39,339 bases of DNA from Sulfurovum sp. (GCA_027012955.1 JALUYL010000075.1:1-39339); one strand, 5' to 3'; counted from the first letter of the stretch, positions 1 through 37,157 are shown. The notes: generated from the letters alone by a model not told the origin. Numbers and translations are program-made.

Positions 1-134
1 TACTTCAATAATATTTTTCAAGATTTACATATATATGTCCAAAACAATATCTCCATTTTTATCAAGTGTTTGGTTTTTGGTTGATTATTTAGAGGGAGGA
101 ATCTCTATTTCGTGATTTGGGGTTAGCATTACAT

Positions 135-163
135 TTGAACATTAAGTCTTAATTTGGTACAAT
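135..163 (+). promoter_or_regulatory. sigma70-type promoter of the first TA cassette
   Basis: TTGAAC at 135-140, a 17-bp spacer and TACAAT at 158-163 match a housekeeping promoter. A Shine-Dalgarno sequence (GAAGGAGA) follows just before the ATG at 185. The promoter lies inside the cassette, after the core site at 122-128, so the cassette appears able to express its own genes without an integron promoter. Confidence 0.6.
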
Positions 164-184
164 AAAAGGACTGAAGGAGATTTT

Positions 185-457
185 ATGCAAATTGTAAATG
201 ATATAAAGCCTGTAACTTATCTAAAAAGCAGAGCGGCTGATGTTCTAAAATATATCAATGAAACTCATAGACCTATGATAATCACACAAAATGGTGAAGC
301 CAAAGCTGTTATCCAAGATCCAAAGAGTTATGAAGATATGAAAAATGCTCTTTCTATAATGAAGCTTCTTTCATTTGCAGAAGAAGATATTAGAAGTGGA
401 AATCTTCATACCCAAGAAGATGTTTTTAACTCTGTTGAAGAACTCCTTAGCAAATGA
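185..457 (+). CDS. Phd/YefM-family antitoxin
   Basis: A 90-aa protein with the Phd/YefM fold signature: an N-terminal beta-strand and helix region (VNDIKPVTYLKSRAADVLK) followed by a strand carrying ITQNGEAKAVIQDPKSYE. In this family the N-terminal half binds operator DNA and the C-terminal tail (here SGNLHTQEDVFNSVEELLSK) wraps the toxin. The start at 185 has a good Shine-Dalgarno sequence. The stop overlaps the toxin start by 4 bp (ATGA), so the two are translationally coupled. The pair sits as a cassette between core sites at 122 and 846; TA pairs are known to stabilise cassette arrays. Autoregulation of the promoter at 135-163 is expected from the family but not shown here. Confidence 0.9.
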   Translation: MQIVNDIKPVTYLKSRAADVLKYINETHRPMIITQNGEAKAVIQDPKSYEDMKNALSIMKLLSFAEEDIRSGNLHTQEDVFNSVEELLSK

Positions 458-810
458 GTAAATTTTATAAAGTCAAATGGACTTCAAATGCGAAAGAAGA
501 CCTTTTAAATATTGTTGATTATATCAAAAAAGATAATTTAAGTGCTGCAAGAAAAGTTTATGGACAAATAAAAGAAAAAGCACAGTCTAGCAATTTTTTT
601 CCTTTAAGAGGTAGAGTAATTCCTGAACTTCAAAAAGAAGGTATAACTATTTATAGAGAACTGATTGCACAACCATGGAGAGTTATGTACAAAGTTGAAA
701 ATGATACTGTTTATATTATGGCTATTTTTGATTCAAGACAAAATGTAGAAGAGTTGTTATTACAAAAACTATTAAGAGGTCATATGCTAACAAAACAGAG
801 TAACCAATAA
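454..810 (+). CDS. RelE/ParE-family toxin
   Basis: A 118-aa protein of the RelE/ParE superfamily: KVKWTSNAKEDLLNIVDYIKK at the N-terminus, a central PLRGRVIPEL segment, then YRELIAQPWRVMYKVENDTVYIMAIFDSRQN, the usual core strands ending in a DSRQ-type tail. Family members are either mRNA interferases (RelE) or gyrase poisons (ParE); the sequence does not decide which. The gene overlaps the upstream antitoxin by 4 bp. The last eight codons and the stop run into the left core site of the downstream attC-like site (785-852), so the C-terminus is partly encoded by the recombination site. That may be a cassette-formation product, since the domain proper ends near residue 107. Confidence 0.88.
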   Translation: MSKFYKVKWTSNAKEDLLNIVDYIKKDNLSAARKVYGQIKEKAQSSNFFPLRGRVIPELQKEGITIYRELIAQPWRVMYKVENDTVYIMAIFDSRQNVEELLLQKLLRGHMLTKQSNQ

Positions 811-852
811 ATTACCTAGCGGCAATTTATCGGCTATCTTTGACCGTTAGCA
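785..852 (+). other. integron attC-like site 1
   Basis: Outer boxes TGCTAAC (785-791) and GTTAGCA (846-852) are exact inverse complements, as expected for R'' and R' of an integron recombination site. Inside lies an imperfect stem: CCAATAAATT (804-813) pairs with AATTTATCGG (824-833) with one mismatch. Length is 68 bp. The site closes the TA cassette, and the next gene begins 16 bp after it. Confidence 0.75.
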
Positions 853-868
853 ACACAAAAGGAAAAAG

Positions 869-1822
869 ATGTCTAAACTATCTCAAGCAAAAAAGATTGT
901 TAAACTTTTACAAGATAATCCTAATGAGCGATTTAGCGCGAGATATATAGCCGAAAAAATTGTTTCAATTTACCCTCAAGATTATGAAGCAAAGAAAAAT
1001 AACCCAAGGTTTAAAGATGAAAAATCTTTCATATCTCAAATTGTTGCAGAAATAGGTTCTCAAAAAGACCAACTTACAAAAAGCAGTGAACATATTTTTT
1101 GGCAAGACAAACCTCGTCCGAGAGTTTATTGGTATGACCCAGATAAAAAAAGAGGAGATACATCTAATGATGATATTGAAGATGAGAATGAAGAAAGTGA
1201 CGAGTATATCTCTCCAACTTCTATTCCAAATAAATCCTCTTTTTCAGAACATGATTTATATCCACTTTTGATTAATTATTTGAATTCTGAGCACAATTTA
1301 TACTGTATGAGAATTGATGAAAAAAAGTCTAGAAATTTACGGGGCAGTGGAGGCAACACATGGTTACATCCAGATATTGTTGCAATGCAAGCAGTAGATA
1401 AAGAATGGGATGAACTAATAAGAACTTGTGTAAAAAATGGCGATGGACAAAGTGTAAGATTATGGTCATTTGAAGTAAAAATCACTTTAAATAGTTCAAA
1501 TGTTAGAAAGAGTTTCTTTCAAGCAGTAAGTAATTCTAGTTGGGCAAACGAAGGATATTTAGTTGCTACATCAATATCTGATAACAAAGTAGAACAAGAA
1601 CTTCGTATGCTTTCAGCTCTTCATGGTATTGGAGTTATTTTACTTAATCCTGAAAATCCATCAGAAAGCGAGATTCTTTTACCTGCAAAATCTAGACCTG
1701 AAATAGATTGGCAGTCTGTAAATAGAATATTAGTGGAGAATAGTGATTTTAAAGATTATATAGAATTGGTTTCAACATATTACCAAACTGGTAGAGTTAG
1801 AAAAAAAGACTGGAATAAATAG
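869..1822 (+). CDS. HrgA-like (COG2958-type) protein
   Basis: A 317-aa protein. The first ~90 residues look like a winged-helix or HARE-type HTH (AKKIVKLLQDNPNERFSARY and IAEKIVSIYP), then an acidic linker (DDIEDENEESDEY, around residues 98-112). A C-terminal alpha/beta domain of about 190 residues carries GGNTWLHPDIV and LWSFEVKI. This layout matches COG2958/HrgA, the protein that replaces a restriction gene in some Helicobacter pylori strains. The pattern D-I-V near 169 followed by W-S-F-E-V-K near 203 (D...E-x-K) fits a PD-(D/E)XK nuclease-type core, which is inference. It is the only gene of its cassette, with a good Shine-Dalgarno sequence (AAAAGGAAAAAG) just before the ATG. Confidence 0.72.
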   Translation: MSKLSQAKKIVKLLQDNPNERFSARYIAEKIVSIYPQDYEAKKNNPRFKDEKSFISQIVAEIGSQKDQLTKSSEHIFWQDKPRPRVYWYDPDKKRGDTSNDDIEDENEESDEYISPTSIPNKSSFSEHDLYPLLINYLNSEHNLYCMRIDEKKSRNLRGSGGNTWLHPDIVAMQAVDKEWDELIRTCVKNGDGQSVRLWSFEVKITLNSSNVRKSFFQAVSNSSWANEGYLVATSISDNKVEQELRMLSALHGIGVILLNPENPSESEILLPAKSRPEIDWQSVNRILVENSDFKDYIELVSTYYQTGRVRKKDWNK

Positions 1823-1827
1823 CATAT

Positions 1828-1896
1828 TGCTAACAAATCATTGGAGAGAAATATTTGACCCTGCGGCTCAAATATTTCTCAACTTAGTCGTTGCAC
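1828..1896 (+). other. integron attC-like site 2
   Basis: TGCTAAC (1828-1834) and GTTGCAC (1890-1896) form the outer boxes. Between them is a perfect 13-bp stem, GAGAAATATTTGA (1846-1858) with TCAAATATTTCTC (1868-1880), and a 9-nt loop. It lies immediately after the stop codon of the HrgA-like gene, as attC sites do. The right box is degenerate relative to GTTRRRY. Confidence 0.72.
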
Positions 1897-1922
1897 GCAC
1901 CCGCGGAGCGGGAGCGTGCAAC
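1890..1922 (+). repeat. perfect GC-rich hairpin at start of non-coding cassette
   Basis: GTTGCACGC (1890-1898) pairs perfectly with GCGTGCAAC (1914-1922), and inside it CCCGC (1900-1904) pairs with GCGGG (1908-1912) around a GGA loop, with a single A-A mismatch between the two stems. It overlaps the right box of attC-like site 2 and the left box of site 3, so the two sites share one hairpin. It is far more GC-rich than its surroundings. Confidence 0.8.
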
Positions 1923-2078
1923 GGGCGCGCTGATCACTGAACGTGACCACTGCCATTCGTTGGTCTCCGCTACGCTACATCCAACAAATGCCAGGATACA
2001 CACATCAAGTCTGATCCCAGAAAACCCTTCGGGATTTTCTGATATCATACTGAATGGTGATCAGCGCGCCCGTTAGCA
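1916..2078 (+). other. large attC-like structured element 3
   Basis: A perfect 18-bp inverted repeat (AAC plus 15 bp at 1920-1937, matched at 2057-2074) encloses 119 nt. Those hold two further hairpins: CATTCGTTGG/CCAACAAATG (1954-1963 and 1981-1990, one mismatch) and AGAAAA-CCC-TTC-GGG-A-TTTTCT (2019-2040). The right box is GTTAGCA (2072-2078), identical to site 1; the left is GTGCAAC. Together with 1891-1915 this makes a cassette of about 182 bp with no convincing gene. Small open frames across it lack a ribosome site. It is either an attC with a long terminal structure or a cassette encoding a structured RNA. Confidence 0.65.
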
Positions 2079-2094
2079 TACACAAGGAGTTCTA

Positions 2095-2514
2095 TTGAAA
2101 TTTGTAAAAGCATTTTTAGAAAAATTTGGAAGTGGCCTATTTATAGGAATAGTTGCAGGTATATCAGCAGGCTTCATTTTTGGAATAATTTCCATGTTGA
2201 TGAATCAATCAATATGGGGAAGAGATGCTGAGATTAGAGAACAAGCCACCATTACTAAGGACCGAGAAGTTACGCGTAAAGGGATAACAATGATTTTAGG
2301 TAATCTAAAAAATAATTCTGAAGATTCTATGCGAATGTTTAAAATAAAAGCTGATTTATTTGACGAAAATGGAACGTTTGTTGAACAATGTTCAGACTAT
2401 ATCTCAGATTTAGATGCAGGAAAGCAAACTCACTTTAAAATTATTTGTAAAAGTTGTGACAGCAACAAAACTATTGAACACTCAAGCTATAAGATTTACT
2501 TGGGTGGATTTTAA
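2095..2514 (+). CDS. small membrane-anchored protein of unknown function
   Basis: A 139-aa protein starting at TTG 2095, chosen because AAGGAG lies 5-6 nt upstream and no ATG fits. Residues about 10-40 (GLFIGIVAGISAGFIFGIIS) form one membrane helix. The remaining ~100 residues are soluble and contain two cysteines close together near the end (KIICKSCDS). I do not recognise the family. It is the only gene of its cassette (2073-2578) and is followed directly by attC-like site 4. Cassette genes encoding small membrane-anchored proteins are common, and no function can be inferred. Confidence 0.7.
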   Translation: MKFVKAFLEKFGSGLFIGIVAGISAGFIFGIISMLMNQSIWGRDAEIREQATITKDREVTRKGITMILGNLKNNSEDSMRMFKIKADLFDENGTFVEQCSDYISDLDAGKQTHFKIICKSCDSNKTIEHSSYKIYLGGF

Positions 2515-2515
2515 A

Positions 2516-2584
2516 TGCTAACAAAAACGTGGAGCGAATAGTTTACCGCAAGCGGAAACTATTCGCTCACGATGAACGTTGTAC
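2516..2584 (+). other. integron attC-like site 4 (last of the array)
   Basis: Outer boxes are TGCTAAC (2516-2522) and GTTGTAC (2578-2584). A perfect 13-bp stem, GAGCGAATAGTTT (2532-2544) with AAACTATTCGCTC (2556-2568), is capped by a CCGC-AA-GCGG hairpin. The stop codon of the preceding gene abuts the left box. No further cassette follows; the next gene is housekeeping xth on the other strand, so this marks the array end. Confidence 0.75.
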
Positions 2585-2675: not shown

Positions 2676-3446
2676 CTAAACCTCTAACACCAACTTCACA
2701 GGGCAGTGGTCGCTGCCCATGATGTTATCTAAAATATCCGCTTCGACTATCTTATCTTTTAAATCATCTGAGACATAAAAATAGTCGATTCTCCATCCCA
2801 CATTATTGCCTCTAGCCCCTGCTCTGTAGCTCCACCATGAGTAACGCTCTTCCTCATCACCATGCACATGTCTAAATGTGTCTATAAAACCTGAAGCCAA
2901 GAGTTTGTCTTGCCATTCTCTCTCCATTGGTAAAAACCCTGAAGTTTTTTCATTGGCTTTAGGACGTGCAAGGTCTATGGGGTGATGTGCAGTATTTACA
3001 TCGCCACATACTACAATGGACTTTCCTTGTTGGCGAAGTTCCAAAATATGCTCTAAAAAACGCTCGTAAAATGCCATCTTGTATGCCAAGCGTTCTTCAC
3101 TGCGTTGTCCATTGGGGAAATAGACATTAAAAAGTGCAATGTTGTCAAAATGATACTCGTTGATGCGTCCTTCATCTAAAATATCCACATGGTCACAAGA
3201 TGAAGCTTCACCTTTAATGTCTGTGTAGAGTGCCACACCTGACTGTCCTTTGTTTACAGAAGAGTTTATACTTTGGTACTTGTAGTCACGTGCAAAGATA
3301 CCCTCTGGTATCTGGTCTGCCTCTGCTTTGATTTCCTGTAGTCCTAAGAAGTCTACATCTGCTTTGTCTATCCATTTAAGTGCATCTTTTTTATCTACTG
3401 CACGTATGCCGTTTACATTCCACGATATAAAAGTAAGTTTTGCCAT
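2676..3446 (-). CDS. xth: exodeoxyribonuclease III (AP endonuclease)
   Basis: A 256-aa ExoIII/ExoA-type base-excision repair enzyme, cutting DNA 5' of abasic sites and acting as a 3'-5' exonuclease. Family motifs are in order: SWNVNGIRA near the N-terminus, LQEIKAE with the metal-binding Glu, YFPNGQRSEERLAYK with the catalytic Tyr region, CGDVNTAHHPIDLARPK with the Asp/Asn pair, WRIDYFYVS, and the terminal SDHCPV with the catalytic Asp-His. Length is normal. It runs opposite to and ends about 90 bp from the cassette array, and it is divergent from the methyltransferase at 3505. Confidence 0.95.
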   Translation of the reverse strand: MAKLTFISWNVNGIRAVDKKDALKWIDKADVDFLGLQEIKAEADQIPEGIFARDYKYQSINSSVNKGQSGVALYTDIKGEASSCDHVDILDEGRINEYHFDNIALFNVYFPNGQRSEERLAYKMAFYERFLEHILELRQQGKSIVVCGDVNTAHHPIDLARPKANEKTSGFLPMEREWQDKLLASGFIDTFRHVHGDEEERYSWWSYRAGARGNNVGWRIDYFYVSDDLKDKIVEADILDNIMGSDHCPVKLVLEV

Positions 3447-4158: not shown

Positions 4159-4187
4159 TTTACATTTCATATGAATTATGTTATACT
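4159..4187 (+). promoter_or_regulatory. sigma70-type promoter of VapBC-like operon
   Basis: TTTACA (4159-4164), a 17-bp spacer and TATACT (4182-4187) precede the antitoxin start at 4223, which has an AAGGAG Shine-Dalgarno sequence at 4211-4216. Autorepression here by the TA complex would be typical of the family. Confidence 0.55.
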
Positions 4188-4222
4188 TTTTTACTTTACA
4201 AATAAAAATAAAGGAGTTTTAT

Positions 4223-4429
4223 ATGCATACTATCAAAATTGATATAAGTGATAATATTTACGATAATGTAATGTTTTTTCTTAATAATTTACCAAAAAAA
4301 GATATTAAACTTCATACTCAAAAAAAACTTACTGAAGAGAAACTCACAGACTTTTTTCACTCTTCCCCGCTACAAGATATTACACTAGAAAGAAACAAAG
4401 ATATTTATCAAGATAGAGTCAATTTTTGA
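4223..4429 (+). CDS. small antitoxin of VapBC-like pair
   Basis: A 68-aa protein starting at ATG 4223, which has AAGGAG seven bases upstream; an in-frame ATG at 4178 lies in the promoter and is rejected. The N-terminal HTIKIDISDNIYDNVMFFLN resembles short strand-helix antitoxins. The C-terminus (DFFHSSPLQDITLERNKD) has the SP-L pattern often seen in VapB tails that enter the PIN-domain active site. Its stop overlaps the toxin start by 4 bp. Assignment as antitoxin rests on size, order and coupling rather than on a clear domain. Confidence 0.75.
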   Translation: MHTIKIDISDNIYDNVMFFLNNLPKKDIKLHTQKKLTEEKLTDFFHSSPLQDITLERNKDIYQDRVNF

Positions 4430-4848
4430 AATATATCTTAGATACAAATATTATCTCTGAACTTATCAAGACAAATCCAAATCAAAAAGTATTACATTTT
4501 CTCAATACAATTCAAGAAAAAGATATTTATCTCTCATCTATTACTATTGGAGAAATATACTTTGGTATCCAAAAACTCCCTTATGGTAAAAAGCAAACAA
4601 AGCTTCTCTCTTGGGTTGAAGAGCAACTACTTCCAAGGTTTCACAATAAAGTGATAGTTATTGATACTGATGTAATGTTACAGTGGGCGATACTGACAAA
4701 CACATTAAAAACAAAAGGTACACCTTTGCCTATAATGGATTCTCTTATCGGTGCAACTTGTTTAGCTAAGAAATTTACACTTATCACGCGTAATGAAAAA
4801 GATTTTAAAAACATAAATATACAAATTATTAATCCATTTAATTCGTAA
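4426..4848 (+). CDS. vapC: VapC-type PIN-domain ribonuclease toxin
   Basis: A 140-aa PIN-domain protein read from TTG 4426, overlapping the antitoxin stop. Acidic metal-binding residues are in place: D6 in ILDTNIISEL, E43 in SITIGEIYFGI, D105 in MDSLIGATC, and the TRNEKDF motif at 121-127. VapC toxins cleave tRNAs or rRNA, and which target applies here is not visible. Length is normal. The gene converges with the DUF445 gene, 16 bp away. Confidence 0.92.
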   Translation: MKYILDTNIISELIKTNPNQKVLHFLNTIQEKDIYLSSITIGEIYFGIQKLPYGKKQTKLLSWVEEQLLPRFHNKVIVIDTDVMLQWAILTNTLKTKGTPLPIMDSLIGATCLAKKFTLITRNEKDFKNINIQIINPFNS

Positions 4849-34347: not shown

Positions 34348-35286
34348 CTAATACTTTTTATTGGTATACTCTAGTAAATCATCTTCTGATAGGTTATCCG
34401 TGAGCTTCGCTAGATTTCTAAGAGAAAAGAGACGTAGATGTTCACCCTTCTCTTTTTTGAGTTCTAAAGAAAACTTATTTTTAGAGTAGAGTATAAAGGT
34501 ATCAACATCCAACTGGGCTTTGACACAGTTCTCTTTGAGTTTTGTGAGTTCAGATTTATTCATCTTCTGCTTTGAATGCTTAGAAGCACCTGCGAGTATA
34601 GCACCTGACTTACGCTTGATTAAAATGTCTATCTCCACATTTTTGTCATAGTAAGAGCCGATGCTCTCTATGGCATCTCCTTCAAACTCATCTTTGAAGC
34701 TAAGTTGTATGAGTTCAAGTAGCAGTTGTTCATAGATGAGTGTCGTAAACTCCGACTTCATCCCCTCCCAACGCTTCGTTACTTCAGTATAGTCACCCTC
34801 TTTGATGCTCTTATAGGTAGGAGAGATAACAGCAAACCAAAAACGCATAAATGGGGTAATAAAGAGCAGTTTATCTGAAATACCATCTTTTTCATCTACA
34901 GGTTTTTCGACAGAACGGTCAAATTTTAAAAATCCATCTTTGATGAGAAAGTCTATCACCTCTTCTCCATCTTCTCTTCCCACATTCACTTTTTTAAACG
35001 CAGAATGCTCACGTCTGTCTCCCGTAGCTATGGCTGTGAGCATCGCATGGTAAGTAGGCTTGGAGTGTGTAATCTTCGTAAGGTCGCCATGTATGTAACG
35101 GTAGTTACTGAGTACTTTATTGACGATGAGCTTGTCTAAAGGTTTTGTCATATCTACAGACCATCCCATACCACCAAACACGGCAAAGTATGTCACTGCA
35201 GTTTCAAAGTCAGTGGCTTTGTTTTGGTAGCAAAAAGAGCGAAATTGCGCTAGGAGTGAGGGGTGTTTAGATGGATGTTCTGACAT
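34348..35286 (-). CDS. DUF234-domain protein (copy 1)
   Basis: A 312-aa protein of the kind formed by the C-terminal part of archaeal-type ATPases (DUF234), with no ATPase domain. The N-terminal ~120 residues are winged-helix-like. VEKPVDEKDGISDKLLFITPFMRFWFAVISPTYKSI is the DUF234 signature. The C-terminal segment SYYDKNVEIDILIKRKSGAILAGASKHS is a PD-(D/E)XK-type core (E-I-D...), but the usual E-x-K is GASK here, so the catalytic Glu is Ala. The paralogue at 36231 shares this. It ends 9 bp from the convergent DUF3298 gene. Confidence 0.8.
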   Translation of the reverse strand: MSEHPSKHPSLLAQFRSFCYQNKATDFETAVTYFAVFGGMGWSVDMTKPLDKLIVNKVLSNYRYIHGDLTKITHSKPTYHAMLTAIATGDRREHSAFKKVNVGREDGEEVIDFLIKDGFLKFDRSVEKPVDEKDGISDKLLFITPFMRFWFAVISPTYKSIKEGDYTEVTKRWEGMKSEFTTLIYEQLLLELIQLSFKDEFEGDAIESIGSYYDKNVEIDILIKRKSGAILAGASKHSKQKMNKSELTKLKENCVKAQLDVDTFILYSKNKFSLELKKEKGEHLRLFSLRNLAKLTDNLSEDDLLEYTNKKY

Positions 35287-36230: not shown

Positions 36231-37157
36231 CTAATACTTTTTGTTCTTATAGACTAACACATCATCTTGCGTCAAATTATCAAGCAGTGAAGAGAGGTCT
36301 ACTCTAGAGAGAAGTACTACTTCCTTCTCTTTTAATGCCTCAACTTCTGGGGTAAATCCATTTTTGGAAAAGAGTACATAGTCAGAAATTTCTAGTTCTG
36401 CTTTTTGACACTTTTCTATAAGGGTATCCATCATATTACTCTTTGCGGGTGTCTCAGAGTATTTACACGCACCCGCTATCATGTCACCTGATTTTCTCTG
36501 GGCTAGTATATCTATCTCTAACTTTTTATCGTAGTAAGAACCTATTTTGACTATAGGGTCATTTTCAGACTTAGCATTAAAGGTTTCTTTGACCAATTCT
36601 AAGAGCAAAAGATTAGAAAGTAAGATGGAAAAGTTACCTCTTATTTTATGCCACTTTTGTGCAAACTCATCATAATCGCCTTCTGAAATACTTTGATAGT
36701 TCGGCGAAATCATAGCAAACCAAAAACGCATAAAAGGCAAGTCAAACAAAATTCTGTCTGACTTCCCACCACCCTCTTTTAAAGGTTTCTCTACAGACAA
36801 ATCAAACTTTATTAAACTTTTACTAACAAGATAATCTATGGCTTCTTCGCCCTTTTCTTTCCCTACTTTGGCTTTTTTGAACACATCATTTTCATGGTTT
36901 ACACCCAAAGCGATGATATTCAACACCATATGATACAAGCCATTATTATGTGTATACCGTGTCATACTTTCATGCAATGCATCATAGTTAGAAAGTACCT
37001 TGTCTTCAATGAGCGTAGCCACACTCTTTGAGACATCCACATCCCACCCCGTACCACCAAATACAGTAAAATACTCTAAAGCCGTATCAAAATCTTTGAT
37101 GTTATTTTGGTACGCGAAAGAGCGAAAGTGTTGTAAAGGTGTTGGATGTTTTGCCAT
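36231..37157 (-). CDS. DUF234-domain protein (copy 2)
   Basis: A 308-aa paralogue of the protein at 34348, with the same order: an N-terminal winged helix (HFRSFAYQNNIKDFDTALEYF, FGGTGWDVDVSKS), the DUF234 signature (VEKPLKEGGGKSDRILFDLP then FMRFWFAMISPNYQSISEGDYDEF), and a nuclease-like core SYYDKKLEIDILAQRKSGDMIAGACKYS. In this copy also the E-x-K position is G-A-C-K. There is no ATPase domain. It heads a reverse-strand run with a 3-bp gap to the methyltransferase. Confidence 0.8.
   Translation of the reverse strand: MAKHPTPLQHFRSFAYQNNIKDFDTALEYFTVFGGTGWDVDVSKSVATLIEDKVLSNYDALHESMTRYTHNNGLYHMVLNIIALGVNHENDVFKKAKVGKEKGEEAIDYLVSKSLIKFDLSVEKPLKEGGGKSDRILFDLPFMRFWFAMISPNYQSISEGDYDEFAQKWHKIRGNFSILLSNLLLLELVKETFNAKSENDPIVKIGSYYDKKLEIDILAQRKSGDMIAGACKYSETPAKSNMMDTLIEKCQKAELEISDYVLFSKNGFTPEVEALKEKEVVLLSRVDLSSLLDNLTQDDVLVYKNKKY

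Follow-up and report, generated by a model that had tools for sequence, protein, structure and literature searches.

The Campylobacterota are listed among the phyla that carry integrons (PMC8618304), and clusters of attC sites lacking integron-integrases (CALINs), as called by IntegronFinder, have been published for Sulfurovum sp. NBC37-1 and Sulfurimonas autotrophica (PMC10295459). Cassettes without a protein gene are known from Vibrio and Treponema as carriers of promoters (PMC11014356, PMC6557892); those of Vibrio measure 491-666 bp, of which 335-515 bp lie besides the attC site, and mostly function as promoters. The window considered here is a stretch of 39,339 nucleotides that makes up an entire contig (C75, 39 kb) of a Sulfurovum-clade metagenome-assembled genome (MAG) of 110 contigs and 75.8% completeness. 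The MAG is taken to be Sulfurovum-like from G014, a genome of its genus whose intI sequence is identical to that of Sulfurovum sp. isolate S145_27_esom. Its first 2,584 positions carry a cassette array of a known kind, integrons in both Sulfurovum and Sulfurimonas having been reported previously. It is considered likely that this array is the distal part of a Campylobacterota integron without an adjoining integrase, and that its third cassette is a minimal, possibly selfish cassette that is composed of an attC site only and is moved by the integron integrase, IntI.

The original prediction had delimited four cassettes by four sites of attC layout, and these sites are indeed present, all on the plus strand. 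attC1 (785-852) combines the left core (R'') TGCTAAC with the right core (R') GTTAGCA, attC2 (1828-1896) has the cores TGCTAAC and GTTGCAC, attC3 (1916-2078) is a long and branched site whose closing stem (inverted repeat I5) is perfect, and attC4 (2516-2584), with GTTGTAC as its R', forms the distal end of the array. Sites 1, 2 and 4 display cores of the RYYYAAC/GTTRRRY type, inner paired boxes, a bottom-strand fold and covariation. Their bottom-strand folds are more stable than those of shuffled sequence, with z-scores of -4.5, -5.3 and -5.8 respectively, and the inner 148 nt of site 3 reach -8.5. In place of IntegronFinder, a covariance model (R1) was built for the purpose from three window sites and four sites of contig C80 of the same genome; it contains 21 pairs, nine of which show double compensatory changes. 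Searched genome-wide, R1 matched 785-852, 1828-1896 and 2516-2584 at E values from 5.5e-13 to 2.5e-16, which are the strong covariance hits that had been proposed as a check, together with three sites outside its training set on contigs C3 and C66. A single-pattern attC search of the genome was noisy (13 and 10 matches vs 3 and 8 in the control), and a strict core expression missed most sites on C80, since the cores there are TATAAC.

In all four cassettes the first six bases (TTAGCA, TTAGCA, TTGCAC and TTAGCA in cassettes 1 to 4) are perfectly complementary to the left core of the cassette's own attC (TGCTAAC, TGCTAAC, GTGCAAC and TGCTAAC); as read linearly in the array, the cores mismatch in three of the four sites. 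This is the pattern that excision and insertion at G↓TT (the arrow marking the cassette boundary) would yield and that chance would not. Site 3 likewise has the G↓TT boundary and the core complementarity within its cassette. The claim that each site directly follows a gene holds for sites 1, 2 and 4 and fails for site 3, since the cassette at 1891-2072 is gene-less.

With three R1 matches plus attC3 on one strand, and no integrase anywhere on the 39 kb contig, as had been predicted for the window, the stretch is a CALIN within its contig. Contig C32 of the same MAG nevertheless carries an intI-type gene (560-1518, locus L016), two halves of which match TIGR02249 at E 3.8e-59 and 4.4e-57. This gene carries a frameshift near 1094 and its N-terminus of about 20 codons is replaced by foreign sequence, making it either a pseudogene or an assembly fault. 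Intact relatives of the C32 gene occur in many congeners and also in other Campylobacterota families, and intI-type sequence is found in a large minority of the 36 other genomes of the genus. Across 80 intI loci all 43 primary R1 matches (16 loci) are located upstream of intI and on the strand opposite to it, which is the geometry of an integron; seven R1 matches in the reverse orientation have low scores and are shadows cast by these same palindromes. In the survey of 298 Campylobacterales genomes with this model, 99 contain R1 sites. The alignment upstream of intI gives an attI consensus, GAATAAATAG↓TT, roughly 255 nt away from the start of intI, which is present in the source genome as a single copy (C80:8492-8510). 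There, five cassettes with small gene pairs come after attI (C80:5107-8500, L025), presumably BrnT/BrnA-like and others judging from a reading of their sequence, and another gene occupies the usual place of intI. Three separate contigs hold the intI (C32), the attI with its array (C80) and the window array (C75), and attI belongs to an array other than that of the window. The attC matches, the intI in the same MAG and the intI-linked attCs of relatives support the prediction that this Campylobacterota genome holds an integron cassette array here, with its distal end at 2584.

Single attCs away from arrays were also observed at L028:5255-5320, L028:12369-12435 and L029:4296-4362, behind a toxin-antitoxin-like pair, a truncated antitoxin remnant and a DNA methyltransferase/restriction-like pair, respectively. 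The complete genome G023 has ten attC matches scattered on its chromosome and no intI match, a case of cassettes outlasting the integrase.

Cassette 1 begins within a GTTAGCA core at 122-128 (plus strand; G↓TT). This core had been predicted to open the first cassette and is present, but no attC precedes it: the sequence to its left (1-121, with the contig edge at 1) contains no recognisable attI or attC, forms no attC-like fold and has no attC model score even with filters off, and no related sequence was found among the loci compared. Two other roles considered for these bases were rejected, that of an intI start as the IntI starts of relatives differ, and that of attI on comparison with the attI consensus, which occurs once in the genome, on C80. 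Beyond its distal end the array is flanked by an exodeoxyribonuclease III-type gene, exoA (2676-3446, minus strand; PF03372, E 4.6e-27), that lies outside it. No attC-type sites were found in the exoA neighbourhoods of 29 relatives, and therefore the position of the array appears to be particular to the source genome. An empty-site comparison at exoA yielded no alignable flank among the relatives, the neighbourhoods being too divergent. With 121 bases to its left, the window array may have been inserted at a non-classical site or separated by rearrangement.

It is conceivable, if somewhat short of probable, that IntI placed the window array at a chromosomal non-classical attG site away from attI, and that the array is not the tail of the main one. 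IntI insertion at attG sites has been described (Loot 2024, as cited in PMC12901181), and the boundary at 122, being neither attI nor attC, may be attG-like. The attI of the genome, followed by an array of its own that runs out into ordinary genes, lies on a different contig, single attC cassettes occur on C3 and C66, and the relatives are free of attC near exoA. Set against this are the short distance of 121 bases from the boundary to the contig end, the lack of an alignable empty site in any relative, and the fact that chromosomal rearrangement of a once-single array would give the same picture.

Cassette 3 (1891-2072, plus strand) is a gene-less, attC-only cassette of 182 bp. It comprises a branched attC of 163 nt and a short hairpin, P1 (GTTGCACGCACCCGCGGAGCGGGAGCGTGCAAC, 1890-1922, inverted repeat I12), which joins both cores of the cassette. 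Some 20 bp of the cassette fall outside the attC. The sole open reading frame (ORF) listed is a 61-aa frame with a TTG start that overlaps the attC, and none has at least 70 aa. The G+C content of the cassette is 55% vs 30-34% in the other cassettes and 37.5% in the genome. A scan for promoter-like or terminator-like sites within 1891-2072 found none, which is weak evidence. Searches with cassette 3 gave no match in Rfam or among viral contigs and a 35-nt match only among plasmids, and a DNA search recovered homologues in 12 further genomes of the 298 with 72-89% identity over the longer matches.

Covariance models of two gene-less types, R2 for type A, which includes cassette 3, and R3 for type B with a length of about 157 nt, were searched against 398 Campylobacterales genomes. 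Type A occurs in 28 genomes of 9 genera with up to six matches per genome, type B, which first surfaced via R2 matches in intI loci, in 32 genomes of 13 genera with up to seven, and one or both types in 50 genomes by hand count from the match lists. The units share a common plan that runs from G↓TT through a P1 hairpin with both cores, a closing stem and two branched arms to CCG↓TT, and their longest ATG-initiated ORF has a median length of 22-24 aa. A gene-less unit is the first cassette after attI in 16 of the 51 intI loci with a readable base after attI, likewise counted by hand, and among the copies listed with a readable left side most begin right behind attI (AATAAATA[G), an attC or a gene-less end. 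In G014 a type A unit stands directly behind attI, and in L193 and L200 the end of a type B unit immediately precedes a type A unit. A third gene-less type is discernible by eye in L212, L214 and L215. As further observations, L108 holds an apparent internally deleted gene-less unit, and the chromosome of G425 carries about ten type A and B units, clustered at 256759-278597, 463240 and 1781216-1786074.

The structure of the units is conserved through compensatory change. Type A has 63 pairs, 24 of them with double changes, and 94.6% of cells are paired; its covariation is 0.292, shuffles give 0.093 and slid controls no more than 0.059, and 0 of 500 shuffles reach the score. The P1 pairs beyond the cores covary too, where an attC needs no pairing. 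Type B has 50 pairs, 20 with double changes. The first 7 nt of a unit perfectly complement the start of its own attC in 22 of 22 copies of type A and 42 of 45 of type B, and in the excised circle the cores, the stem and P1 would form one continuous rod.

The two strands of the units are not equivalent. The bottom strand is the more stable one in 41/41 and 19/19 copies of the two types (60/60), by about 11 kcal/mol with DNA energies, and ordinary attCs favour it with the same sign but more weakly (48 vs 9). Moreover, the top strand has more A.C, equivalent to G.T on the bottom, than G.T, with ratios of 59:10 in type B and 30:10 in type A. This wobble bias persists after clustering at 85% and is seen both in G-C columns (27:7 in type B, 15:5 in type A) and in A-T columns (32:1 and 15:5). 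In type B mutation bias does not explain it, as the unpaired columns show symmetric transitions; in type A these are less even. The counts are conservative, since the covariance alignments were built on the top strand under RNA rules and such alignments favour G.U on top.

The strand bias bears on the possibility that cassette 3 is a regulatory gene-less cassette, a promoter, insulator, terminator or small RNA acting on its neighbours or on intI, which appears unlikely. Promoter activity is known for gene-less cassettes in both Vibrio and Treponema (PMC11014356, PMC6557892), the family often sits first behind attI, where the cassette promoter Pc would read through, and a structured stretch that is richer in G+C than its A+T-rich genome (55% vs 37.5%) is typical of structured RNA too. 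However, a selected sense RNA would tolerate G.U on the top strand and the reverse is observed, so that the wobble counts (59:10 and 30:10) and the bottom-strand folds (60/60) disfavour a sense RNA, and cassette 3 has neither a promoter-like or terminator-like site nor an Rfam family. The roughly 20 bp beside its attC also compare poorly with the 335-515 bp of the Vibrio cassettes. An RNA from the bottom strand is a different matter, as an antisense transcript would yield the same strand bias and may be its source.

For the attC-only cassette it is proposed that the cassettes of the array each arrived by IntI-mediated recombination at G↓TT, an act that is read from the cores that are present. 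A unit of the cassette 3 type would be a recombination site throughout, with P1 containing both half-cores followed by the long branched attC. The bottom strand of the unit, when exposed as single strand, would fold, and IntI would insert the folded unit at attI (AATAAATAG↓TT) or behind another cassette. The unit would then be kept because it moves well, hitch-hiking in the manner of miniature inverted-repeat transposable elements (MITEs), and not for any encoded product. From the boundaries, structure, conservation, strand bias and attI position observed in the gene-less units we infer that IntI moves them and that they are selfish.

Several points weigh against this proposal. In addition to an antisense RNA, these include the damage to the source genome's own intI. 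In classical attCs an unpaired central spacer and extrahelical bases help IntI to choose the strand and to react (PMC2727003). Site 3 has neither, the first 20-22 pairs being a perfect stem, and the activity of IntI on cassette 3 is therefore not assured. Ordinary attCs show no wobble bias (29:29), and the wobble count was consequently rejected as a general attC signature; the bias of the family may then be read as a substitute for the extrahelical bases, and it is hypothesised that it replaces them in setting the recombining strand. The units at L167:1471, L168:1689 and L169:635, all behind attI, begin with G↓AT and not G↓TT; they retain the P1 pairing through a matching change on the opposite side. 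Finally, in L048 a long attC body ends a cassette that seemingly carries a gene, so that this kind of site is not strictly gene-less. With somewhat more belief than doubt it is nonetheless suggested that Campylobacterota integrons host gene-less attC-only cassettes, some 155-195 bp long, that have a cap hairpin and a long stem free of spacer and extrahelical bases, in which unequal wobble sets the strand, and that these are minimal mobile elements often found first after attI. The alternative of fortuitous inverted repeats, or of terminators behind genes, where short palindromes are common, can be virtually dismissed given the covariance E values down to 1e-16, the strict co-orientation, the location upstream of intI in relatives and the core complementarity of each cassette.

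The remaining cassettes, all on the plus strand, carry genes. Cassette 1 (123-846) contains a promoter-like site (135-163) and a type II toxin-antitoxin pair, composed of a Phd/YefM-type antitoxin gene (185-457; PF02604, E 2.6e-14) and a ParE/RelE-type toxin gene (454-810; PF05016, E 7.7e-14) that extends into attC1. In Vibrio, toxin-antitoxin cassettes can protect silent arrays from loss, and the pair of cassette 1 with its own promoter-like site could likewise keep a silent array from being lost. Cassette 2 (847-1890) holds a 317-aa gene (869-1822) without a Pfam match, whose product we take to resemble the HrgA/COG2958-type restriction-endonuclease-like proteins and has relatives in 49 of 298 Campylobacterales genomes. 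Cassette 4 (2073-2578) encodes a 139-aa protein (2095-2514, TTG start) with an N-terminal membrane-like stretch and a FxLYD domain (NF038353, E 7.3e-10). A defence-system search of the cassette genes gave no match worth calling.

A piece of the array, attC1 and the first ~300 bases of cassette 2, recurs with 92% identity over 365 nt in G145, a genome of another family, and also at an attC junction. Within the genus exoA itself shows 72-89% identity, and a cassette piece that is more similar between families than exoA is within a genus points to lateral transfer of cassettes.

Elsewhere in the window, a PIN-domain toxin gene (PF01850) and a small upstream partner (4178-4848) form a second toxin-antitoxin-like pair near the array, this one without an attC. 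Two similar proteins of about 310 aa are encoded on the same strand at 34348-35286 and 36231-37157, with a methyltransferase-like gene between them, and are probably paralogues.

If the proposal of minimal attC-only cassettes is true, the integron, which has been studied as a gene-capture device, has minimal parasites or fittings of its own. The units would provide a natural test of what an attC requires, spacer and extrahelical bases being absent, and they are a likely reason why assemblies of these genomes break immediately after attI. In addition, a covariance model and an attI consensus become available for a phylum with few described integrons. The literature consulted, largely without subscription papers, contains no description of attC-only cassettes or of the cassette 3 family, which is weak evidence of novelty, and an attC-only cassette family in the Campylobacterales is apparently undescribed so far.

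The array resembles sedentary chromosomal integrons, such as the Vibrio superintegron, and CALINs, such as those of Sulfurovum sp. NBC37-1 and Sulfurimonas autotrophica, in its co-oriented attCs, its G↓TT boundaries, its toxin-antitoxin cassette and the presence of intI and attI in the lineage. It differs from them in that this MAG has its intI, attI and arrays on separate contigs, a damaged intI and scattered single cassettes. Cassette 3 shares with the gene-less cassettes of the Vibrionaceae and Treponema that it is an array cassette without a protein gene, whereas those of Vibrio have more than its ~20 bp besides attC and mostly act as promoters, and its lack of a promoter-like site sets it apart; the units described here also form one homologous structured family that spans many genera and is often in first position. 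Like the Vibrio attCs of the Vibrio cholerae repeat (VCR) type, attC3 is a long site with a branched terminal structure (PMC2727003), but it is of other sequence, has no spacer or extrahelical bases in its first 20 pairs and is joined to a P1 cap. With MITEs and other non-autonomous elements the gene-less units have in common that they are short, gene-less, structured and multi-copy, with an enzyme that would be supplied elsewhere. Unlike these elements, they end in integron cores, show no target duplication and sit at integron sites.

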